Shown here in pieces: positions 12,829-20,105 of a stretch of DNA of 35,289 nucleotides. The notes under the pieces are model-generated. The model saw nothing but the letters and a program-made list of their open reading frames with translations. It ran no database searches and was not told where the DNA came from. Source of the DNA: Actinomycetes bacterium (lineage in GTDB: Bacteria > Actinomycetota > Coriobacteriia > Anaerosomatales > Anaerosomataceae); NCBI GenBank assembly GCA_021373175.1, contig JAJFTE010000058.1, positions 1-35,289 of the forward strand. The letters are read 5' to 3'. Each line of letters opens with the position of its first letter. Position 1 is the first letter of the stretch. Made by a program: the position numbers and the translations under genes.

Positions 12829-13377
12829 ATGCGCAAGATCGTCGCAGTCATCGTCGTAGCACTTCTGTCGTTCGTCCTCGTGGGTTGTGGCGGCGGGGGA
12901 GACACCGCTGCCACCACTACCGGAGCGGCCGCTCCAAGCGCTCCTGCGGCGGCCAAGCCGCCCGTGGAGAGCAGCGATCGGTCGCCTATCGAATCCGGGA
13001 CGCCGGAGCCGTTCCCCGCCATCGAATCGACAACGCTGCCTTCGGCGATCAAGAGCAAGCTTGATGCGAAGCGCCCGCTGATGATCTACTTCTACGACAG
13101 CACGCTGCCGGAGTCCAAGATCGTCCGAGCCGAGATCGACGCGGTACTTCAAGAGAATCGCGGTCTCATCGACCTTGTGACCTTCGACCTCGGCGCCACC
13201 AAGAAGGGTGTGGCGACCGATGGCGCCCGTCTCGGCGCTGCTCTCGCTGGCGACCTCCGTGTGCCGCGTCCACCGTACATCGTCATCGTGGACGGCAACG
13301 GGTTCATCACATGGCGTTTCATGGGATACGTCGACCGCGGGATCATCAGCCGAGAGGTCCTTCGCGCGACCGAGTAG
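12829..13377 (+). CDS. Lipoprotein with thioredoxin-fold-like domain lacking CxxC
   Basis: A 182-residue protein with a lipoprotein signal: hydrophobic stretch then LVGC with the lipidated cysteine at C20, so it is anchored outside the membrane. A flexible Ala/Thr/Pro-rich linker (about 25-55) leads to a domain resembling thioredoxin: beta strand LMIYFYD, a helix starting where CxxC would be but reading STLPESK, then DLVTFDL, a possible cis-proline turn RVPRPPYIVIVDGNG and a terminal helix. The redox cysteines are absent, so it is unlikely to be an oxidoreductase; binding or chaperone roles are possible. GGAGG (12816-12820) precedes the ATG by eight bases. Its stop codon is followed by rarA after two bases. 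Confidence 0.75.
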   Translation: MRKIVAVIVVALLSFVLVGCGGGGDTAATTTGAAAPSAPAAAKPPVESSDRSPIESGTPEPFPAIESTTLPSAIKSKLDAKRPLMIYFYDSTLPESKIVRAEIDAVLQENRGLIDLVTFDLGATKKGVATDGARLGAALAGDLRVPRPPYIVIVDGNGFITWRFMGYVDRGIISREVLRATE

Positions 13378-13379
13378 CC

Positions 13380-14639
13380 ATGGACGACCTTTTTTCCGAG
13401 GCCGCCGAGCGGTCGATCGCCCGAACCGCGCCCCTGGCCGCGCGCATGCGTCCACGCACGCTCGACGAGTTCGTCGGACAGCAGGACATCGTGGGCCCGG
13501 GAACCTTCCTCAGAAGCGCGATCGAACTCGATGCGCTCACGTCAATCATCCTGTTCGGACCGGCCGGCTGCGGCAAGACCAGCCTCGCGCGCATCATCGC
13601 CGGTGTGACGAGTTCGCACTTCACGGAACTCTCGGCGGTGGACTCCGGCGTGAAGGATGTCCGTTCGGCGATCGACGCCGCACGTGACCGGTTGGGCCAG
13701 TCCGGCAGGCGCACGATCGTGTTCATCGATGAGATCCACCGTTTCAACAAGTCGCAGCAGGACGCCTTGCTTCATGCCGTCGAGGACCGCCTCATCACGC
13801 TTATTGGCGCCACCACCGAAAACCCGTTCTTCGAAGTGAATGCGCCGCTCATCAGCAGGTCGCGCGTCTTGGTCATGCAACCGCTGAGTGACGACGACAT
13901 CCGCACTATCGTGCGCAGTGCGCTCACAGCCGAGCGAGGGCTGGACGGCTCGGTCGCGCTCTCTTCGGAGGCCGAGGATCGAATCGTGCTGAGCGCCGGT
14001 GGCGACGCCCGCGCTGCGCTCACGTCGCTCGAGCTTGCGGCGAGCGTGGCGGCCCCGGGACCCGACGGCATCCTTCGCGTCGGTGTCGACGAGGTTGCCG
14101 AGGTCACACAGACGCGGCAGCTCACGTACGACAAAGCCGGTGACACGCACTACGATGTCATCTCCGCATTCATCAAGTCGATGCGCGGGAGCGACCCGGA
14201 CGCCGCCGTGTACTGGCTCGCCAGGATGATCGACGGCGGCGAAGATCCCAAATTCATCGCGCGCAGAATGTTCATCTTCGCATCGGAGGATGTGGGGATG
14301 GCCGATCCGCAGGCGCTGCTTGTAGCGGAAGCGGCGGTCAAGGCCGCGGAGTTCATTGGTTGGCCCGAGTGTCGCATCAACCTGGCGCACGCGGCGATCT
14401 ACCTCGCGAGCGCGCCGAAGTCGAACGCGGCGTACGTTGCTGTGAGCGAGGCGCTGGCTGAGGTGCGGGAGGGCCCGGCCCGTGCGGTTCCGGACCATCT
14501 GCGAGACCGGCGGCGTCCGGGTGCCGACGAGTATCCACCGTACAAGTATCCCCACGCCTATCCGGGGGCGGCGTTCGAGCAGCAGTACATGCCCTCCAGA
14601 CTCGAGGGTCGCCGGTTTTATCGCCCGGGCGGCGAGTGA
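13380..14639 (+). CDS. rarA: Replication-associated recombination AAA+ ATPase RarA (MgsA)
   Basis: RarA acts at stalled replication forks and junctions and interacts with single-strand-binding protein and the clamp loader. The ATG at 13380 gives the family N-terminus MDDLF, followed by the conserved RMRPRTLDEFVGQ segment; a longer open frame starts inside the preceding gene and is rejected. Walker A GPAGCGKT is at 60-67, Walker B FIDEIHRF near 115-122, sensor GATTENP follows, and the tetramerisation domain ends with the typical QQYMP...GRRFYRP. The 419 residues are slightly short because the linker before the last motif is trimmed. Its position after aspS and the 6S RNA is as in Bacillus. Confidence 0.95.
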   Translation: MDDLFSEAAERSIARTAPLAARMRPRTLDEFVGQQDIVGPGTFLRSAIELDALTSIILFGPAGCGKTSLARIIAGVTSSHFTELSAVDSGVKDVRSAIDAARDRLGQSGRRTIVFIDEIHRFNKSQQDALLHAVEDRLITLIGATTENPFFEVNAPLISRSRVLVMQPLSDDDIRTIVRSALTAERGLDGSVALSSEAEDRIVLSAGGDARAALTSLELAASVAAPGPDGILRVGVDEVAEVTQTRQLTYDKAGDTHYDVISAFIKSMRGSDPDAAVYWLARMIDGGEDPKFIARRMFIFASEDVGMADPQALLVAEAAVKAAEFIGWPECRINLAHAAIYLASAPKSNAAYVAVSEALAEVREGPARAVPDHLRDRRRPGADEYPPYKYPHAYPGAAFEQQYMPSRLEGRRFYRPGGE

Positions 14640-14654
14640 TCGAAGCGCGGGCGC

Positions 14655-14679
14655 GGTTTCTCGCGCCGCAGAGGGGTAC
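14655..14679 (+). promoter_or_regulatory. Candidate sigma-B/F-type promoter of the DUF948-rsbW-sigma operon
   Basis: GGTTTC (14655-14660) and GGGTAC (14674-14679) are separated by 13 bases (14 from GTTT to GGGTA), which fits the actinobacterial sigma-B/sigma-F form GNNT-N14-16-GGGTAC/T. It lies about 50 bases before an operon that encodes a sigma factor of this very family, suggesting autoregulation. The GTTT falls in the loop of an inverted repeat, GGCGCG/CGCGCC (14650-14655/14662-14667), which has no following T-run and so is not a normal terminator. Confidence 0.5.
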
Positions 14680-14685
14680 GCGCTT

Positions 14686-14694
14686 TGCTACACT
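14686..14694 (+). promoter_or_regulatory. Second candidate promoter (extended -10) of the sigma operon
   Basis: TGC plus TACACT forms an extended -10 box 36 bases ahead of the DUF948 start codon. No -35 is visible. It could provide basal transcription beside the stress-type promoter just upstream. Confidence 0.3.
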
Positions 14695-14730
14695 TGACCG
14701 GTACGTCACCGCGTGCTCGGAGGACACCTT

Positions 14731-15072
14731 ATGGCGTTACGTTCTGTTCTCGAGATCGTGCTCATCGTGCTCGGCATCGTGCTGGCGGGTGCCGGCATCT
14801 GTGTGGCGGTGGTCTTCGTCCGCACGCTCAGGGATGCCAGGGCGACGCTCGCGCAGGTGCGCGAACGCGTCGTGCCGATGCTGGGAAAGGCCGACATCAG
14901 CCTTGACGCACTCAATGCCGAGCTCTTGCGCGTTGACGGCATCGTGACGGACATCGAAGAGGTGTCCGGCGCGGTGAGTTCGGCCACGGACGCTATCCGC
15001 ACACCTGTCGATGCGATCGCCGGACTGGGCGGTCGCCTCGCACGATTCGTCTCACGCGCTCGCCGGTCGTGA
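14731..15072 (+). CDS. DUF948 family membrane protein
   Basis: A 113-residue protein with one N-terminal transmembrane helix (about residues 6-28) and a long amphipathic helical region that fits DUF948, the family of the Bacillus general-stress protein YtxG. The molecular role is not known. I chose ATG 14731 because GGAGG (14719-14723) sits seven bases upstream; an earlier in-frame TTG-type start has no such site. It is the first gene of the anti-sigma/sigma operon, and its YtxG-like family and the upstream sigma-B-type promoter point to a link with the general stress response. Confidence 0.8.
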   Translation: MALRSVLEIVLIVLGIVLAGAGICVAVVFVRTLRDARATLAQVRERVVPMLGKADISLDALNAELLRVDGIVTDIEEVSGAVSSATDAIRTPVDAIAGLGGRLARFVSRARRS

Positions 15073-15106
15073 GCGCCGCTTCGGCCACGCATTCGGAGGA
15101 CTACTC

Positions 15107-15499
15107 ATGGCATCGGATCGCATCGCACTGACGGTTCCCGCTCGAAGCGAATACGCAAAGACCGCCCGCATGACGGCGGCCGAGCTGGCCAGCCGGGTCG
15201 GGATGTCCTACGACGAGGTCGACGACGTGCGTATCGCCGCCGACGAGGCGTTCGTGTACGCATGCACGCACGTTGGAGCTGAAGGCGAGGTCACCTTCTC
15301 CTTCGAGGTGGATGCGGCCGCGCTTGGCATCGTCGTGGGGCCGTTCCCGGACTCAGTCGCCGAGATTGGCGCCGAGCCCGAGGATCGCTACGCCGCCTTC
15401 ATTCTCGAGTCCGTGTGTGACGACTTCACCATCAGACAGGAAGGCGGATCCTGCGTTCTCAGCATCGTTAAGCGCTCCAGCACCCCGGTGGAGGGGTAG
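15107..15499 (+). CDS. RsbW/SpoIIAB-like anti-sigma factor with degenerate ATP site
   Basis: A 130-residue GHKL-fold protein of the RsbW/SpoIIAB type, which hold sigma factors inactive and phosphorylate anti-anti-sigma proteins. The fold is recognisable from its N-terminal strand ALTVPARSEYAKTAR and the helix with ADEAFVYACTH. However the N-box asparagine that binds magnesium-ATP is a tyrosine (Y51, five residues in from E47), and the DxGxG box is replaced by GIVVGPFPDS (about 74-83). ATP binding and kinase activity are therefore doubtful. The ATG at 15107 follows GGAGGA (15095-15100); earlier in-frame starts lie within the previous gene. The sigma factor starts two bases after its stop, so they are very likely partners. 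No anti-anti-sigma gene is in the window. Confidence 0.8.
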   Translation: MASDRIALTVPARSEYAKTARMTAAELASRVGMSYDEVDDVRIAADEAFVYACTHVGAEGEVTFSFEVDAAALGIVVGPFPDSVAEIGAEPEDRYAAFILESVCDDFTIRQEGGSCVLSIVKRSSTPVEG

Positions 15500-15501
15500 A
15501 C

Positions 15502-16287
15502 GTGCCACGAGTCTCCAAGAAGCCGGGACGTCGTCTCGTCTGGGACAAACAGCTCACGCGCGACCTGTTCGCGCACTACCGCGAATACGGCGACGAGGAA
15601 TCTCGCGACGAGCTGATCACGATGTACCTCAATCTGGTGAAGTATCTCGCCAGCCGTTTCCGGAACCGGGGCGAACCGATCGATGACCTGATCCAGGTTG
15701 GGACCATCGGGCTCATCAAGGCGATCGACCGATTCGATACCGACCGGGACGTTGAGTTCACGACGTATGCCACGCCGACGATCGTCGGCGAGCTCAAGCG
15801 TTACTTCCGGGACAAAGGTTGGGCGATCAAGGTCCCCAGGCGTCTGCAGGAGTTGTCGTTCCGGGTGAACCAGGCCGTCGACCAACTGACGCAGCAGATA
15901 CAGCGGTCGCCCACGATTCTCGAGATCGCCGAGTATCTGGGTGTCACGTCCGAAGAAGTCCTCGAAGCGATGGAGACGTCCGAGGCATACAACTTCGTGT
16001 CGCTCGAGGGTGACCGCAACAACGACGGAAGCGACTCGTTCAGCATCCTGGAATACATCGGCAAGGACGACCAGCTCATGGCGGTCGTCGATGACCGTAC
16101 CACGCTTGCCGAGGCGTTGAAGCACCTGACGCCCATGGAACAGCGCGTGCTCTACCTGCGCTTCTTCCAGGGGCTCACCCAGACCGAGATCGCATCGCAG
16201 CTGGAGATCTCGCAGATGCAGGTATCGCGCCTGCTTCGCAAGACCCTTCGTGTGTTGCGAGAACACCTCGTCTCCGAGGAGGTCTGA
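15502..16287 (+). CDS. RNA polymerase sigma factor, SigB/SigF/SigG family
   Basis: An alternative sigma-70-family factor of 261 residues. Region 2 is seen in LVKYLASRFRNRG and DDLIQVGTIGLIKAIDRFD, with the -10-binding helix in TYATPTIVGELKRYFRDKGW; region 3 in VPRRLQELSFRVNQ; region 4 is a helix-turn-helix (LTQTEIASQLEISQMQVSRL) that reads the -35. The spacing and sequence match the SigB/F/G group used for general stress or sporulation control; nothing here shows sporulation. The GTG start follows a GGAGGGG site that overlaps the end of the anti-sigma gene, so the two are coupled. A promoter of the type this factor would recognise lies ahead of the operon. Confidence 0.92.
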   Translation: MPRVSKKPGRRLVWDKQLTRDLFAHYREYGDEESRDELITMYLNLVKYLASRFRNRGEPIDDLIQVGTIGLIKAIDRFDTDRDVEFTTYATPTIVGELKRYFRDKGWAIKVPRRLQELSFRVNQAVDQLTQQIQRSPTILEIAEYLGVTSEEVLEAMETSEAYNFVSLEGDRNNDGSDSFSILEYIGKDDQLMAVVDDRTTLAEALKHLTPMEQRVLYLRFFQGLTQTEIASQLEISQMQVSRLLRKTLRVLREHLVSEEV

Positions 16288-16289
16288 GC

Positions 16290-17477
16290 ATGCCGGACGC
16301 ACGTGCGAGAGAAGATCGGTGGCGTCGTCTGGGAATCAGCGCATGGGCGCTCATTGGCGTCCTCATCCTCGTTGCCGCCGCGTTCTTCGCCCTGGTCAAG
16401 GTCTCGCGCGCGCTTGTGCCGTTCCTGCTGGCGCTCGTGATCGTCTATGTGTTCCGGGCTCCGGTGGCAGCCTTGGAGCGCAAGGGTCTCAAGCGGGGGC
16501 TCGCCGTCGGGCTGTGCTATCTCGTCGCGATAGCGGCCCTTGTGGTCGCCGGCCTGTTCATCGTTCCGCCGATCGTTGATCAGGTTCGTCAATTCCTGAT
16601 GGCATTCCCTGGGTATTACGACAAGGCGTTCGCGCTCTGGCAGCAACTGCAGGCGCAGTTCAACGCCATCACACTGCCCTCGTGGATCAACGACGCGCTG
16701 CTCAACCTGCGCAACGGCGTGGCGAGCCGGGTGATGGCGTGGTCGAGCGCCCTCGCAAGCACGGTCTTCTCGGTGGGCAGCGGCGCCGTTTCGCTGCTCT
16801 TCAACTCGTTTCTCGCTCTCGTGGCTGGCTTCTGGATTCTCAAGGACCTCGACGCCATCAAGAAAGAGGCCCTACTGCTCGCTGGTCCACGGCGCAGGGA
16901 CGAGGCAACCGTGGTGGTGGACAAGGTGTCGAACGTTCTCGGCGGCTACTTAAGAGGCCAGCTGGTCGTTTCCCTGTCCACCGGCGTCATCGTGACCATC
17001 GGTTTGAGCGTCCTGGGTGTCCCTTACGCGCTGGTGCTCGGATTGTTCGCCGGTATCCTGAACGTCATCCCGTGGTTTGGCCCGCTGATCTCCGAGATCA
17101 TCGCAGCCATCGCCGCGGCCTTCGTCAGCCCGTGGCTCGCGCTTGGAGCCGTGGCGGTCATCATGGGCACACAGCAGATCACCGACCTGTTCATCACGCC
17201 GCGCGTGATGTCCGAGCAGGTCGACCTGCATCCGCTCCTCGTGATATTCTCGCTGCTCGTCGGCAGCACGCTCGCCGGGTTCACCGGCCTGATCCTGGCC
17301 ATCCCTGTCGCGGCGATAGGCAAGGGCTTGTTCGTGTACTACTTCGAGAAGTGGACAGACTCGAAGCTGACGACTGAGAAGGGCGCCTTCTTCCGAGACA
17401 AGAAGCCACAGGACGATCCCGACGAGATGAACGCGTCCAACAACGCGGAACAGACCGAAGACCCGGAGGAGACGTAA
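16290..17477 (+). CDS. AI-2E family transporter-like membrane protein
   Basis: A 395-residue polytopic membrane protein of the AI-2E/PerM family (about eight hydrophobic segments, e.g. residues about 18-50, 65-90, 150-180, 220-260, 275-300, 310-345). Family members export varied small molecules or sodium, and the name does not prove autoinducer transport. The conserved late segment with FAGILNVIPWFGPLI is present. The C-terminal 50 residues are charged and probably cytoplasmic. It starts two bases after the sigma gene and ends directly at the alaS start codon, so it is in one transcript with both. In Firmicutes a member of this family also precedes alaS. Confidence 0.88.
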   Translation: MPDARAREDRWRRLGISAWALIGVLILVAAAFFALVKVSRALVPFLLALVIVYVFRAPVAALERKGLKRGLAVGLCYLVAIAALVVAGLFIVPPIVDQVRQFLMAFPGYYDKAFALWQQLQAQFNAITLPSWINDALLNLRNGVASRVMAWSSALASTVFSVGSGAVSLLFNSFLALVAGFWILKDLDAIKKEALLLAGPRRRDEATVVVDKVSNVLGGYLRGQLVVSLSTGVIVTIGLSVLGVPYALVLGLFAGILNVIPWFGPLISEIIAAIAAAFVSPWLALGAVAVIMGTQQITDLFITPRVMSEQVDLHPLLVIFSLLVGSTLAGFTGLILAIPVAAIGKGLFVYYFEKWTDSKLTTEKGAFFRDKKPQDDPDEMNASNNAEQTEDPEET

Positions 17478-20105
17478 GTGAAGGCCGCCGAGATCCGTGA
17501 GAGCTACCTGTCATTCTTCGAGAGCAAGGGCTGCCATCGGCTGCCCTCCTCCTCGCTCGTCCCGGACGACCCGTCGTTGTTGCTGACGTCCGCCGGCATG
17601 GTGCAATTCAAGCCGGTCTTCCTTGGCCTGCGCGACCTCGGGTTCACGCGGGCCACCACCTGCCAGAAGTGCGCTCGCACGACCGACATCGACATCATCG
17701 GCACCACCGGTCGCCACCACAGCTTCTTTGAGATGCTGGGCAACTTCAGCTTCGGCGACTACTTCAAGAGCGAGGCGTGCGCGTGGGCGTACGAGTTCTC
17801 CACGAGCGTGCTCAAGCTCGATCCGTCTCGCCTCTGGTTCTCGATCTACGAGGATGACGACGAGGCCGAGGCGATCTGGCGCGACGAGGTCGGCGTGCCG
17901 GTCGATCGCATCGTCCGCATGGGCGCAAAGGACAACTTCTGGTCGGCCGGTCCCACCGGCCCGTGCGGGCCGTGCTCCGAGCTCTATTACGACCAGGGTC
18001 CCGAGGTCGGTTGTGGCTCGGCGGATTGCGCGCCCGGCTGCGACTGCGACCGCTTTCTCGAGTACTGGAACCTCGTCTTCATGCAGTACGACCGCGCCGA
18101 GGACGGCACGCTCACCCCGCTGCCCAAGCGCAACATCGACACCGGCATGGGCCTCGAGCGCGTGGCCGCGATCATGCAGGGGGTCCACTCCAACTTCGAG
18201 ACCGACATCATCCGCGGCATCATGGAAATCGCCGAGGACATCTCGGGCGCGAAGTACGGTGTGGCCGAGAAGACCGACGTCTCACTTCGCATCATCGCCG
18301 ACCACGCACGCGCGGTGACATTCCTCATCTCCGATGGCGTGCTGCCCTCCAACGAGGGCCGCGGCTACGTGTTGCGTCGGCTCCTGCGTCGTGCGGTGCG
18401 TCACGGCCGGCTTCTCGGCGTTCAGAAGCCGTTCCTTGGCAGGCTCGTCGACGAAGTCGTCGTTCGCATGGGCGACGCGTATCCCGAGATCGTGGAGCAC
18501 CACGACCTCGTAAACCGCATCGTCGCGAGCGAGGAAGAGCGCTTCGGCGCGACACTTCGGCAGGGGCTGACGTTTCTCGCCGAGGCGATCGAACGCACGA
18601 AGGCAGCGGGCGAGCCGGTGCTCGACGGCAAGCTGGCCTTCGCGCTGCACGACACCTACGGTTTCCCGTACGAACTCACCGCCGAGATCGCCGGCGAAGC
18701 CGGCCTTGAGGTCGATCAGGCGGCGTTTGATATCGAGATGAACGAGCAGAAACGGCGCGCGCGAGCGGCCGTGAAAGACGACTCATGGACGGCGTTCGGT
18801 AATGCGTTCGCCGAGGTGGGGAAGCAGCTGGGCGGCAGCGGCGTCGAGTTCGTTGGCTACACCGCCGACGAGGCCGATTCGAGGGTCGTCGGCATCATCC
18901 GCGACGGCGCGCCGGTGGAGTCGATCCCGGCAGGCACGCAAGCCGAAGTGGTTCTGGACGTGACGCCGTTCTACGGCGAGCAAGGCGGTCAGGTCGGCGA
19001 CACCGGGGTCATCTCCGTGGGCAACGCGCGTTTCGAGGTGCGTGACACTCGCGTCCCGATGCCGGGCCTTGTCTCGCATGTGGGGACCCTGGAGAGCGGC
19101 TCGCTCGCCGTCAATGACGCCGTTCACGCCGCCATCGACGTGCCGCGCCGCGAGCGCATCCGGCGCAACCACACCGCGACGCACATCCTGCACTGGGCGC
19201 TGCGCAAGGTGCTCGGCGAGCACGTGCACCAGTCCGGCTCGCTCGTCACGCCAGACCGCCTGCGCTTCGACTTCACGCACTTCGAATCGCCGGGTGCCGG
19301 GCAACTCGAGAAGATCGAGCGGCTCGTCAACGCGAAGATCATGGAGAACCACCCCGTCCGCAACTATGAGACGTCGCTTGCCAGCGCGCGTGAGATGGGT
19401 GTGACGGCTCTGTTCGGTGAGAAGTACGGCACCATCGTTCGCGTGCTCGAGATCGGGAACTTCAGCAAAGAACTATGCGGCGGAACGCATGTCGGCCGCT
19501 CAAGCGAGATCGGCTTCTTCAAGATCGTCTCCGAGGGTAGCGTCGCCGCTAACCTGCGCCGCATCGAGGCAGTCACGTCCTATGGCGCGCTCGATTATGT
19601 GCACGGCGAGGAGGCCACGCTCAGTGCGCTCGGGAGCGCGCTCAAGTGCCGCCCCGCGGAGCTTCCCCGCAACGTCGAGGCGCTGCAGCGGCGGCTCAAA
19701 GAGGCCGAGAGCGCGCTTGCCGAGGCGAGAAAGCGCACCTTCGACAGCGCGGAGGGCAACGCGCTGTTCACAGATGCGCCGGGCGGCTACGCGGTCATCG
19801 TCACGCGGCACGACGGTCTTAGCTCGGACGACCTGCGCGCGGCGGCCGACGCGCTACGTGAGAAGCAGCCGAAGGGCGCGGTCGTGATCGCGAGCGTCAT
19901 GGACGGCAGGGTGCTGCTTTTGGCGGCAGGTTCTCCCGCAGCCGTTTCCGCCGGGTTCGACGCAGCCGCGCTTATCCGCGTCATGGCGCCGCTCGTGGGC
20001 GGCGGCGGTGGCGGCAATCCCGCCATGGCGCAGGCCGGTGGCAAGGACCCGTCGGGCGTCGAGGTGGCGCTCGACGCGGCGCGCGGGCTGCTCGGCGTCA
20101 GGTAG
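17478..20105 (+). CDS. alaS: Alanyl-tRNA synthetase
   Basis: Charges tRNA-Ala and edits mischarged Ser/Gly. The 875 residues contain the class II catalytic core (MLGNFSFGDYFK, motif 3 GMGLERVA), a tRNA-recognition region, the editing domain with its zinc ligands HTATH (H565, H569) and CGGTH (C667, H671), and the C-Ala/DHHA1 domain with the Gly-rich VGGGGGGNPAMAQAGGKDPS. A short cysteine-rich insertion near residues 176-190 (GCGSADCAPGCDC) in the catalytic domain is common in several bacterial AlaRS. The GTG start directly follows the stop of the previous gene and is preceded by GGAGGAG-like bases. It is read with ruvX and mltG, as in Bacillus. Confidence 0.97.
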   Translation: MKAAEIRESYLSFFESKGCHRLPSSSLVPDDPSLLLTSAGMVQFKPVFLGLRDLGFTRATTCQKCARTTDIDIIGTTGRHHSFFEMLGNFSFGDYFKSEACAWAYEFSTSVLKLDPSRLWFSIYEDDDEAEAIWRDEVGVPVDRIVRMGAKDNFWSAGPTGPCGPCSELYYDQGPEVGCGSADCAPGCDCDRFLEYWNLVFMQYDRAEDGTLTPLPKRNIDTGMGLERVAAIMQGVHSNFETDIIRGIMEIAEDISGAKYGVAEKTDVSLRIIADHARAVTFLISDGVLPSNEGRGYVLRRLLRRAVRHGRLLGVQKPFLGRLVDEVVVRMGDAYPEIVEHHDLVNRIVASEEERFGATLRQGLTFLAEAIERTKAAGEPVLDGKLAFALHDTYGFPYELTAEIAGEAGLEVDQAAFDIEMNEQKRRARAAVKDDSWTAFGNAFAEVGKQLGGSGVEFVGYTADEADSRVVGIIRDGAPVESIPAGTQAEVVLDVTPFYGEQGGQVGDTGVISVGNARFEVRDTRVPMPGLVSHVGTLESGSLAVNDAVHAAIDVPRRERIRRNHTATHILHWALRKVLGEHVHQSGSLVTPDRLRFDFTHFESPGAGQLEKIERLVNAKIMENHPVRNYETSLASAREMGVTALFGEKYGTIVRVLEIGNFSKELCGGTHVGRSSEIGFFKIVSEGSVAANLRRIEAVTSYGALDYVHGEEATLSALGSALKCRPAELPRNVEALQRRLKEAESALAEARKRTFDSAEGNALFTDAPGGYAVIVTRHDGLSSDDLRAAADALREKQPKGAVVIASVMDGRVLLLAAGSPAAVSAGFDAAALIRVMAPLVGGGGGGNPAMAQAGGKDPSGVEVALDAARGLLGVR

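Follow-up and report, generated by a model that had tools for sequence, protein, structure and literature searches.

A conserved extended -10 element and a candidate autoregulatory SigB/F-type promoter, limited to three species, upstream of a sigma factor operon of the Anaerosomatales

Introduction

Is the sigma factor operon of an Actinomycetes bacterium from the Anaerosomataceae transcribed with the help of the sigma factor that it encodes? The question is raised by a short intergenic region on contig JAJFTE010000058.1, within the stretch of 35,289 nt that was analysed as a whole (the window). A sequence-only reading of this region had proposed an autoregulatory sigma-B/F-type promoter, GGTTTC-N13-GGGTAC, followed by a second, housekeeping-like element. 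The combination of a vegetative and a self-dependent promoter on the operon of a stress sigma factor is already known in Bacillus, Streptomyces, and Mycobacterium. In the open-licence literature on sigma factors, SigB, promoters, and stress in Coriobacteriia and Anaerosomatales we found no study of this operon, and passages of PMC4255298 that bear on Coriobacteria, SigB, or related subjects contained nothing on it.

The operon and its products

A gap of 91 nt separates the end of the rarA ORF from gene 1, the first of four genes on the same strand (Table 1). The coordinates of the rarA/mgsA-like gene are those of the longest ORF, and its actual start possibly lies further downstream.

Table 1. 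Features of the upstream region and of the operon (positions in the window).
Feature	Position	Strand	Basis or remark
rarA/mgsA-like AAA+ ATPase gene	13311..14639	+	Pfam MgsA_C, E 1.8e-61; ORF list
6-bp inverted repeat GGCGCG-GTTTCT-CGCGCC	14650..14667	.	arms 14650-14655 and 14662-14667; not conserved, probably incidental
SigB-type -35-like box GGTTTC (GTTT core 14656-14659)	14655..14660	+	in 3/5 species of one genus
SigB-type -10-like box GGGTAC	14674..14679	+	in 3/5 species of the genus; family consensus at this place GGGCNC
Extended -10 promoter, CTTTGCTACACT (TG-N-TACACT at 14686-14694)	14683..14694	+	order-wide; probably read by the vegetative sigma factor
Ribosome-binding site GGAGG of gene 1	14719..14723	+	sequence
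Gene 1, small DUF948-like protein (weak match) with N-terminal hydrophobic stretch	14731..15072	+	PF06103; sequence
Gene 2, RsbW-like (HATPase_c_2) putative anti-sigma factor	15107..15499	+	PF13581, E 3e-9; alignments
Gene 3, SigB/SigF/SigG-family sigma factor	15502..16287	+	TIGR02980; PDB 8x6g_H, E 2e-49
Gene 4, AI-2E family membrane protein	16290..17477	+	PF01594, E 2e-62

The third gene had been read as encoding a SigB/F/G factor, and the profile search confirmed this. Its product scored 291 bits against TIGR02980 (cut-off 234) and is the one SigBFG match above the cut-off in the genome. A good alignment was also obtained to PDB 8x6g_H, a sigma factor chain that we take to be staphylococcal SigB, and the aligned stretches presumably include regions 2.4 and 4.2. 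Since the SigB-type segments are kept in this alignment, recognition of GTTT/GGGTA by the gene 3 sigma factor appears plausible. The assignment of the first gene to the YtxG family fared less well. The match to PF06103 (DUF948) reached 22.9 bits (E 1e-4) and stayed below the Pfam cut-off of 37.2, so that this label can be used only tentatively.

Two residues of an RsbW-type kinase, the N-box Asn and the G1-box Asp, are absent from the RsbW-like protein; we assume that both serve ATP/Mg binding. The protein has EAFVYAC where 6m36 has EACTNAV, and VGPFPDS where 6m36 has VADEGDS; by eye, Asn was present at the N-box position in no aligned relative. With both residues missing, the putative anti-sigma factor probably cannot act as a kinase. 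The motifs N, G1, and G2 are named as kinase motifs in PMC7693655 (in extract), which also describes an RsbW homologue without kinase activity beside the sigma gene, RsbW1 of M. smegmatis, encoded next to sigF. For a little-studied group, a putative anti-sigma factor of this kind is a useful result as well. Loss of the kinase-box residues was common to relatives across the order and was also seen in Coriobacteriales.

An RsbV-type gene was not found within the operon. Three STAS-domain matches are located elsewhere in the genome (G000 C13:31203-31966, C3:32648-32908), and they are candidate antagonists of the RsbW-like protein, as the operon itself has none.

Form and position of the SigB-type site

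The pair GGTTTC-N13-GGGTAC is indeed present in front of the operon, at a distance of about 50 nt. The form GTTT-N14-GGGTA (14656-14678) was the sole match with 0 or 1 mismatch on both strands of the whole window. By chance, about 1.5 matches with up to one mismatch are expected per whole window, and the bare string is therefore unremarkable. The strict form GTTT-N13-15-GGGTA appeared at a mean of 0.02 per 51 regions when the orthologous upstream sequences were dinucleotide-shuffled, so that a chance occurrence of the string at this very position is unlikely.

The site had been described as fitting the actinobacterial sigma-B/F form, and this holds for one of the two published spacings. Read as GTTTCT-N12-GGGTAC (14656-14679), it shows the SigB spacing GTTTNN-N12-14-GGGNNN and fits the Bacillus/Streptomyces consensus GTTTAA-N12-14-GGGNNN given for B. 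subtilis and S. coelicolor (PMC8346170, in extract). The S. coelicolor promoter SCO1089p, GTTTCC-N13-GGGTAT, is very close to the site described here (same source, in extract). In contrast, the spacing is 2-3 nt shorter than in the mycobacterial SigF consensus, which is GGWWT-N16-17-GGGTAY in M. smegmatis (PMC7693655, in extract).

GTTT does lie, as had been noted, within the loop of a 6-bp inverted repeat. In the five species of the genus, 6, 3, 1, 2, and 2 of the 6 pairs can form, and the 91-nt leader folded no better than its shuffles (z -0.60). A hairpin around GTTT was rejected as a functional element, being neither conserved nor unusually stable.

The SigB-type pair is limited to three species of one genus

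Each of the 61 genomes searched contained sigma-factor matches. The upstream comparison comprised 55 orthologous loci from 54 genomes (two loci in G037); in the other seven genomes (G022, G024, G043, G050, G051, G055, and G058) the orthologue was interrupted, absent, or situated at the end of a contig. Counts of base conservation and of the pair refer to the 51 loci that carry the extended -10 element, and the four loci without it (L028, L060, L061, and L062) were read by eye only.

The strict pair GTTT-N13-15-GGGTA, whose conservation at orthologous promoters would mark a SigB-type promoter, was found in 3 of the 51 regions (L001, L002, and L003). All three belong to the genus of the window, and the pair was missing from the two other of its five species and from 46 further regions. 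Among the three carriers all 10 bases of the boxes (GTTT and GGGTAC) were invariant. The invariant share was lower among neighbouring positions (11/17; Fisher p 0.04) and among fourfold sites of the sigma gene (45/123; p 9e-5). The spacer was also more conserved than the fourfold sites (11/17 versus 45/123, p 0.026). This comparison is gapless and small, covering three species, and the sequence further upstream is not alignable without gaps. The invariance of the boxes next to diverged fourfold sites points to selection on the block in the three carriers and, modestly, to selection on the boxes as such. Lack of conserved boxes in relatives had been named as an observation that would refute the proposal, and beyond the three species of the genus this is largely what was seen. 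Family-wide, the bases corresponding to GGGTAC read GGGCNC and have no GTTT partner in the -35 position, so part of the conservation of GGGTAC may be unrelated to SigB.

A scan for further sites gave no excess over the reversed-pattern control, neither in the window's own genome (7 versus 8 matches to GTTT-N13-15-GGGTA) nor in a set of 27 genomes from its family (136 versus 184). The positive controls behaved likewise, with motif/reversed counts of 27/18, 11/19, and 9/5 in three Streptomyces genomes and 17/13 in one Kribbella genome. Streptomyces is known to possess SigB-type promoters (PMC8346170, in extract), and since a clear excess was missing there too, the count has little power and was not used as a refutation. 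Gene calls from a GC-position heuristic, not from a gene finder, placed five of the seven sites of the own genome inside predicted genes and left the window site as the only one in promoter position. The four further genomes of the genus have 31 sites, two of which are the orthologous ones; among the other 29, none was intergenic with a predicted start on the same strand 20-120 nt downstream.

Based on these data it is quite possible that only the extended -10 element works, and that GTTT/GGGTAC is an accident of a GC-rich leader inherited by three related species, with no autoregulation at this operon. The absence of the pair from 48 of 51 regions is in line with an accident, as are the GGG of the -10-like box that the family keeps without GTTT and a genome without motif excess, in which most copies of the strict string fall inside predicted genes. 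An accident does not easily account for boxes that are invariant in three species whose fourfold sites have largely diverged, for the low chance rate at this place, or for a promoter-like distance to the start codon. Another explanation is that the block from GTTTCTC to GGGGTACG is not a promoter but a binding site for some other regulator of the extended -10 promoter. The conserved spacer and the position of the block, roughly -45 to -21 relative to the predicted vegetative start, would fit such a site. The inverted repeat of the block is not conserved, however, and the invariant bases are those of the published SigB boxes, at the published spacing (PMC8346170, in extract), which makes a different regulator improbable.

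Two actinobacteria that are distantly related, SURF_21 and Candidatus Solincola, have the form GTTT-N15-GGGAA roughly 50-105 nt before their rsbW-sigma genes (L162 at about 2447-2470, L163 at about 2381-2404). Both sites have a clean SigB-type promoter form and are candidates for an autoregulatory arrangement elsewhere in the wider group.

The extended -10 element is conserved across the order

The extended -10 element TGCTACACT at 14686-14694 begins 6 nt past GGGTAC and matches TG-N-TANNNT; a simple sigma-70 scan of 13800-17500 gave no match. Of the 55 orthologous loci of the order, 51 have exactly one TGNTANANT ahead of the sigma gene. By eye, TACACT was found in 46 of the 51 loci carrying TGNTANANT, mostly as CTTTGCTACACT or CTCTGCTACACT. 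Outside the family of the window (26 loci from 23 genera), strong conservation was confined to the extended -10 and the preceding CTY, and no conserved -35 was found among these 26 loci. A sigma-70 -35 partner was considered and rejected, as the relatives share no conserved hexamer at the usual upstream distance. The housekeeping-like element that had been noticed behind the SigB-type pair is real, and it turned out to be the conserved part of the region.

We also looked at the occurrence of the element at other genes. TGNTACACT has 11 sites in the own genome, compared to 45 for the reversed-pattern control. For seven of these, a gene on the same strand follows within about 80 nt, and rpsF, a LysC-like gene, and tRNA-Ser are among the genes preceded in this way; two more lie at about 280 and 380 nt upstream, and two within genes. 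Over 99 genomes of the class, CTNTGNTACACT occurred 189 times versus 84 times for its control. Because TGNTACACT precedes rpsF, the LysC-like gene, and tRNA-Ser, the element is most likely a vegetative, sigma-A-type promoter of the operon, and we take it to be ancestral in the order. That the extended -10 is instead read by the operon's own sigma factor, which would make the order-wide element the autoregulatory promoter, is very improbable. No other element is conserved along with the operon throughout the order, and TTTGCTACACT occurs once in the genome, but TGNTACACT also stands before the three genes just named and the extended -10 has the shape of a vegetative and not of a SigB -10.

In the family of the window, GGTA at 14700-14703 is conserved, 6-9 nt past TACACT (G.89, G.92, T.89, A.87). 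It coincides with the predicted vegetative start.

A model for the regulation of the operon

Starting from what was observed, namely the sequence, the conservation pattern, and the gene families, we propose that the operon has a vegetative extended -10 promoter and, in three species, in addition an autoregulatory SigB/F-type promoter that would allow self-amplification under stress. We assign a probability of about 0.48 to this model. Basal transcription would start from the -35-less extended -10 element TGCTACACT, read by the vegetative sigma factor, with a predicted start near 14701 (about 14698-14703). In the three species the SigB/F-type promoter (GTTT-N14-GGGTAC) would lie directly upstream and overlap with it, with a predicted start near 14686. 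Stress would free the operon's sigma factor from the RsbW-like protein, and the freed sigma factor would use the upstream promoter and thereby amplify the operon. The predicted upstream start falls inside the vegetative -10, which would take up about +1 to +9 of the transcript from the SigB/F-type promoter, so that both predicted promoters could not be occupied at the same time. Such mutual exclusion may switch the operon to self-amplification. The assignment of the sigma factors to their sites is inferred, and so are both start points, stress as the trigger, and competition between the promoters.

The two parts of the model differ in strength. The main promoter of the operon is probably the conserved extended -10 element. 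For the autoregulatory promoter of the sequence-only reading, form, operon context, and invariance in three species are in favour, while its presence in no more than 3 of 51 regions and the unconserved hairpin are against; it is kept as a lineage-restricted candidate with about even odds. The claim of autoregulation is thereby limited to three species. Tentatively, and with more doubt, self-amplification may have been gained (or lost) within one genus through a SigB-type promoter that interlocks with the order-wide extended -10 promoter, with a positive feedback loop in three species and none in two close relatives. If this is true, the genus represents a natural on/off comparison of sigma autoregulation. 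For this little-studied group, a conserved operon promoter, an extended -10 without -35, has now been located.

Comparison to known systems

The B. subtilis sigB operon shares with the operon described here RsbW-type and SigB-type genes as well as a vegetative and a GTTT/GGGTA-type promoter (PMC8346170 and PMC9847131, both in extract). Unlike in B. subtilis, the two candidates share a single location ahead of gene 1, where they overlap, the operon contains no RsbV-type gene, and the predicted SigB-type promoter is limited to three species. The rsbW-sigF locus of M. smegmatis is likewise transcribed from one SigF-independent and one SigF-dependent promoter, but the SigF-dependent promoter is located upstream of another gene, chaB (PMC7693655, in extract). 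In S. coelicolor, the sigB and sigH operons have constitutive promoters together with stress-induced, partly self-dependent ones (PMC8346170, in extract). Those promoters were mapped experimentally, in contrast to the predicted ones described here, and the gene content differs (same source, in extract).

Some further sites with similar motifs were observed. Besides the window site, the own genome has one other intergenic GTTT-N14-GGGTAT, on the minus strand of L036 (1501-1523). It has no clear ORF before the convergent gene and perhaps gives rise to a short transcript. Rfam searches with L036 and L001 resulted in one sub-threshold match to a Salmonella sRNA, on the other strand of L036, which was disregarded. 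In the named Coriobacteriales genomes (L153 and L156-L158), GGGTAGAAT or GGGTAAAAT takes the place of the extended -10 element before the same gene of the operon and by eye resembles a vegetative-type -10. Upstream of the DUF948-like gene these loci (L153, L156, L157, and L158) carry TTGGGTAGAATG or TTGGGTAAAATG, in which GGGTA overlaps with a vegetative-type -10 (TAGAAT/TAAAAT).
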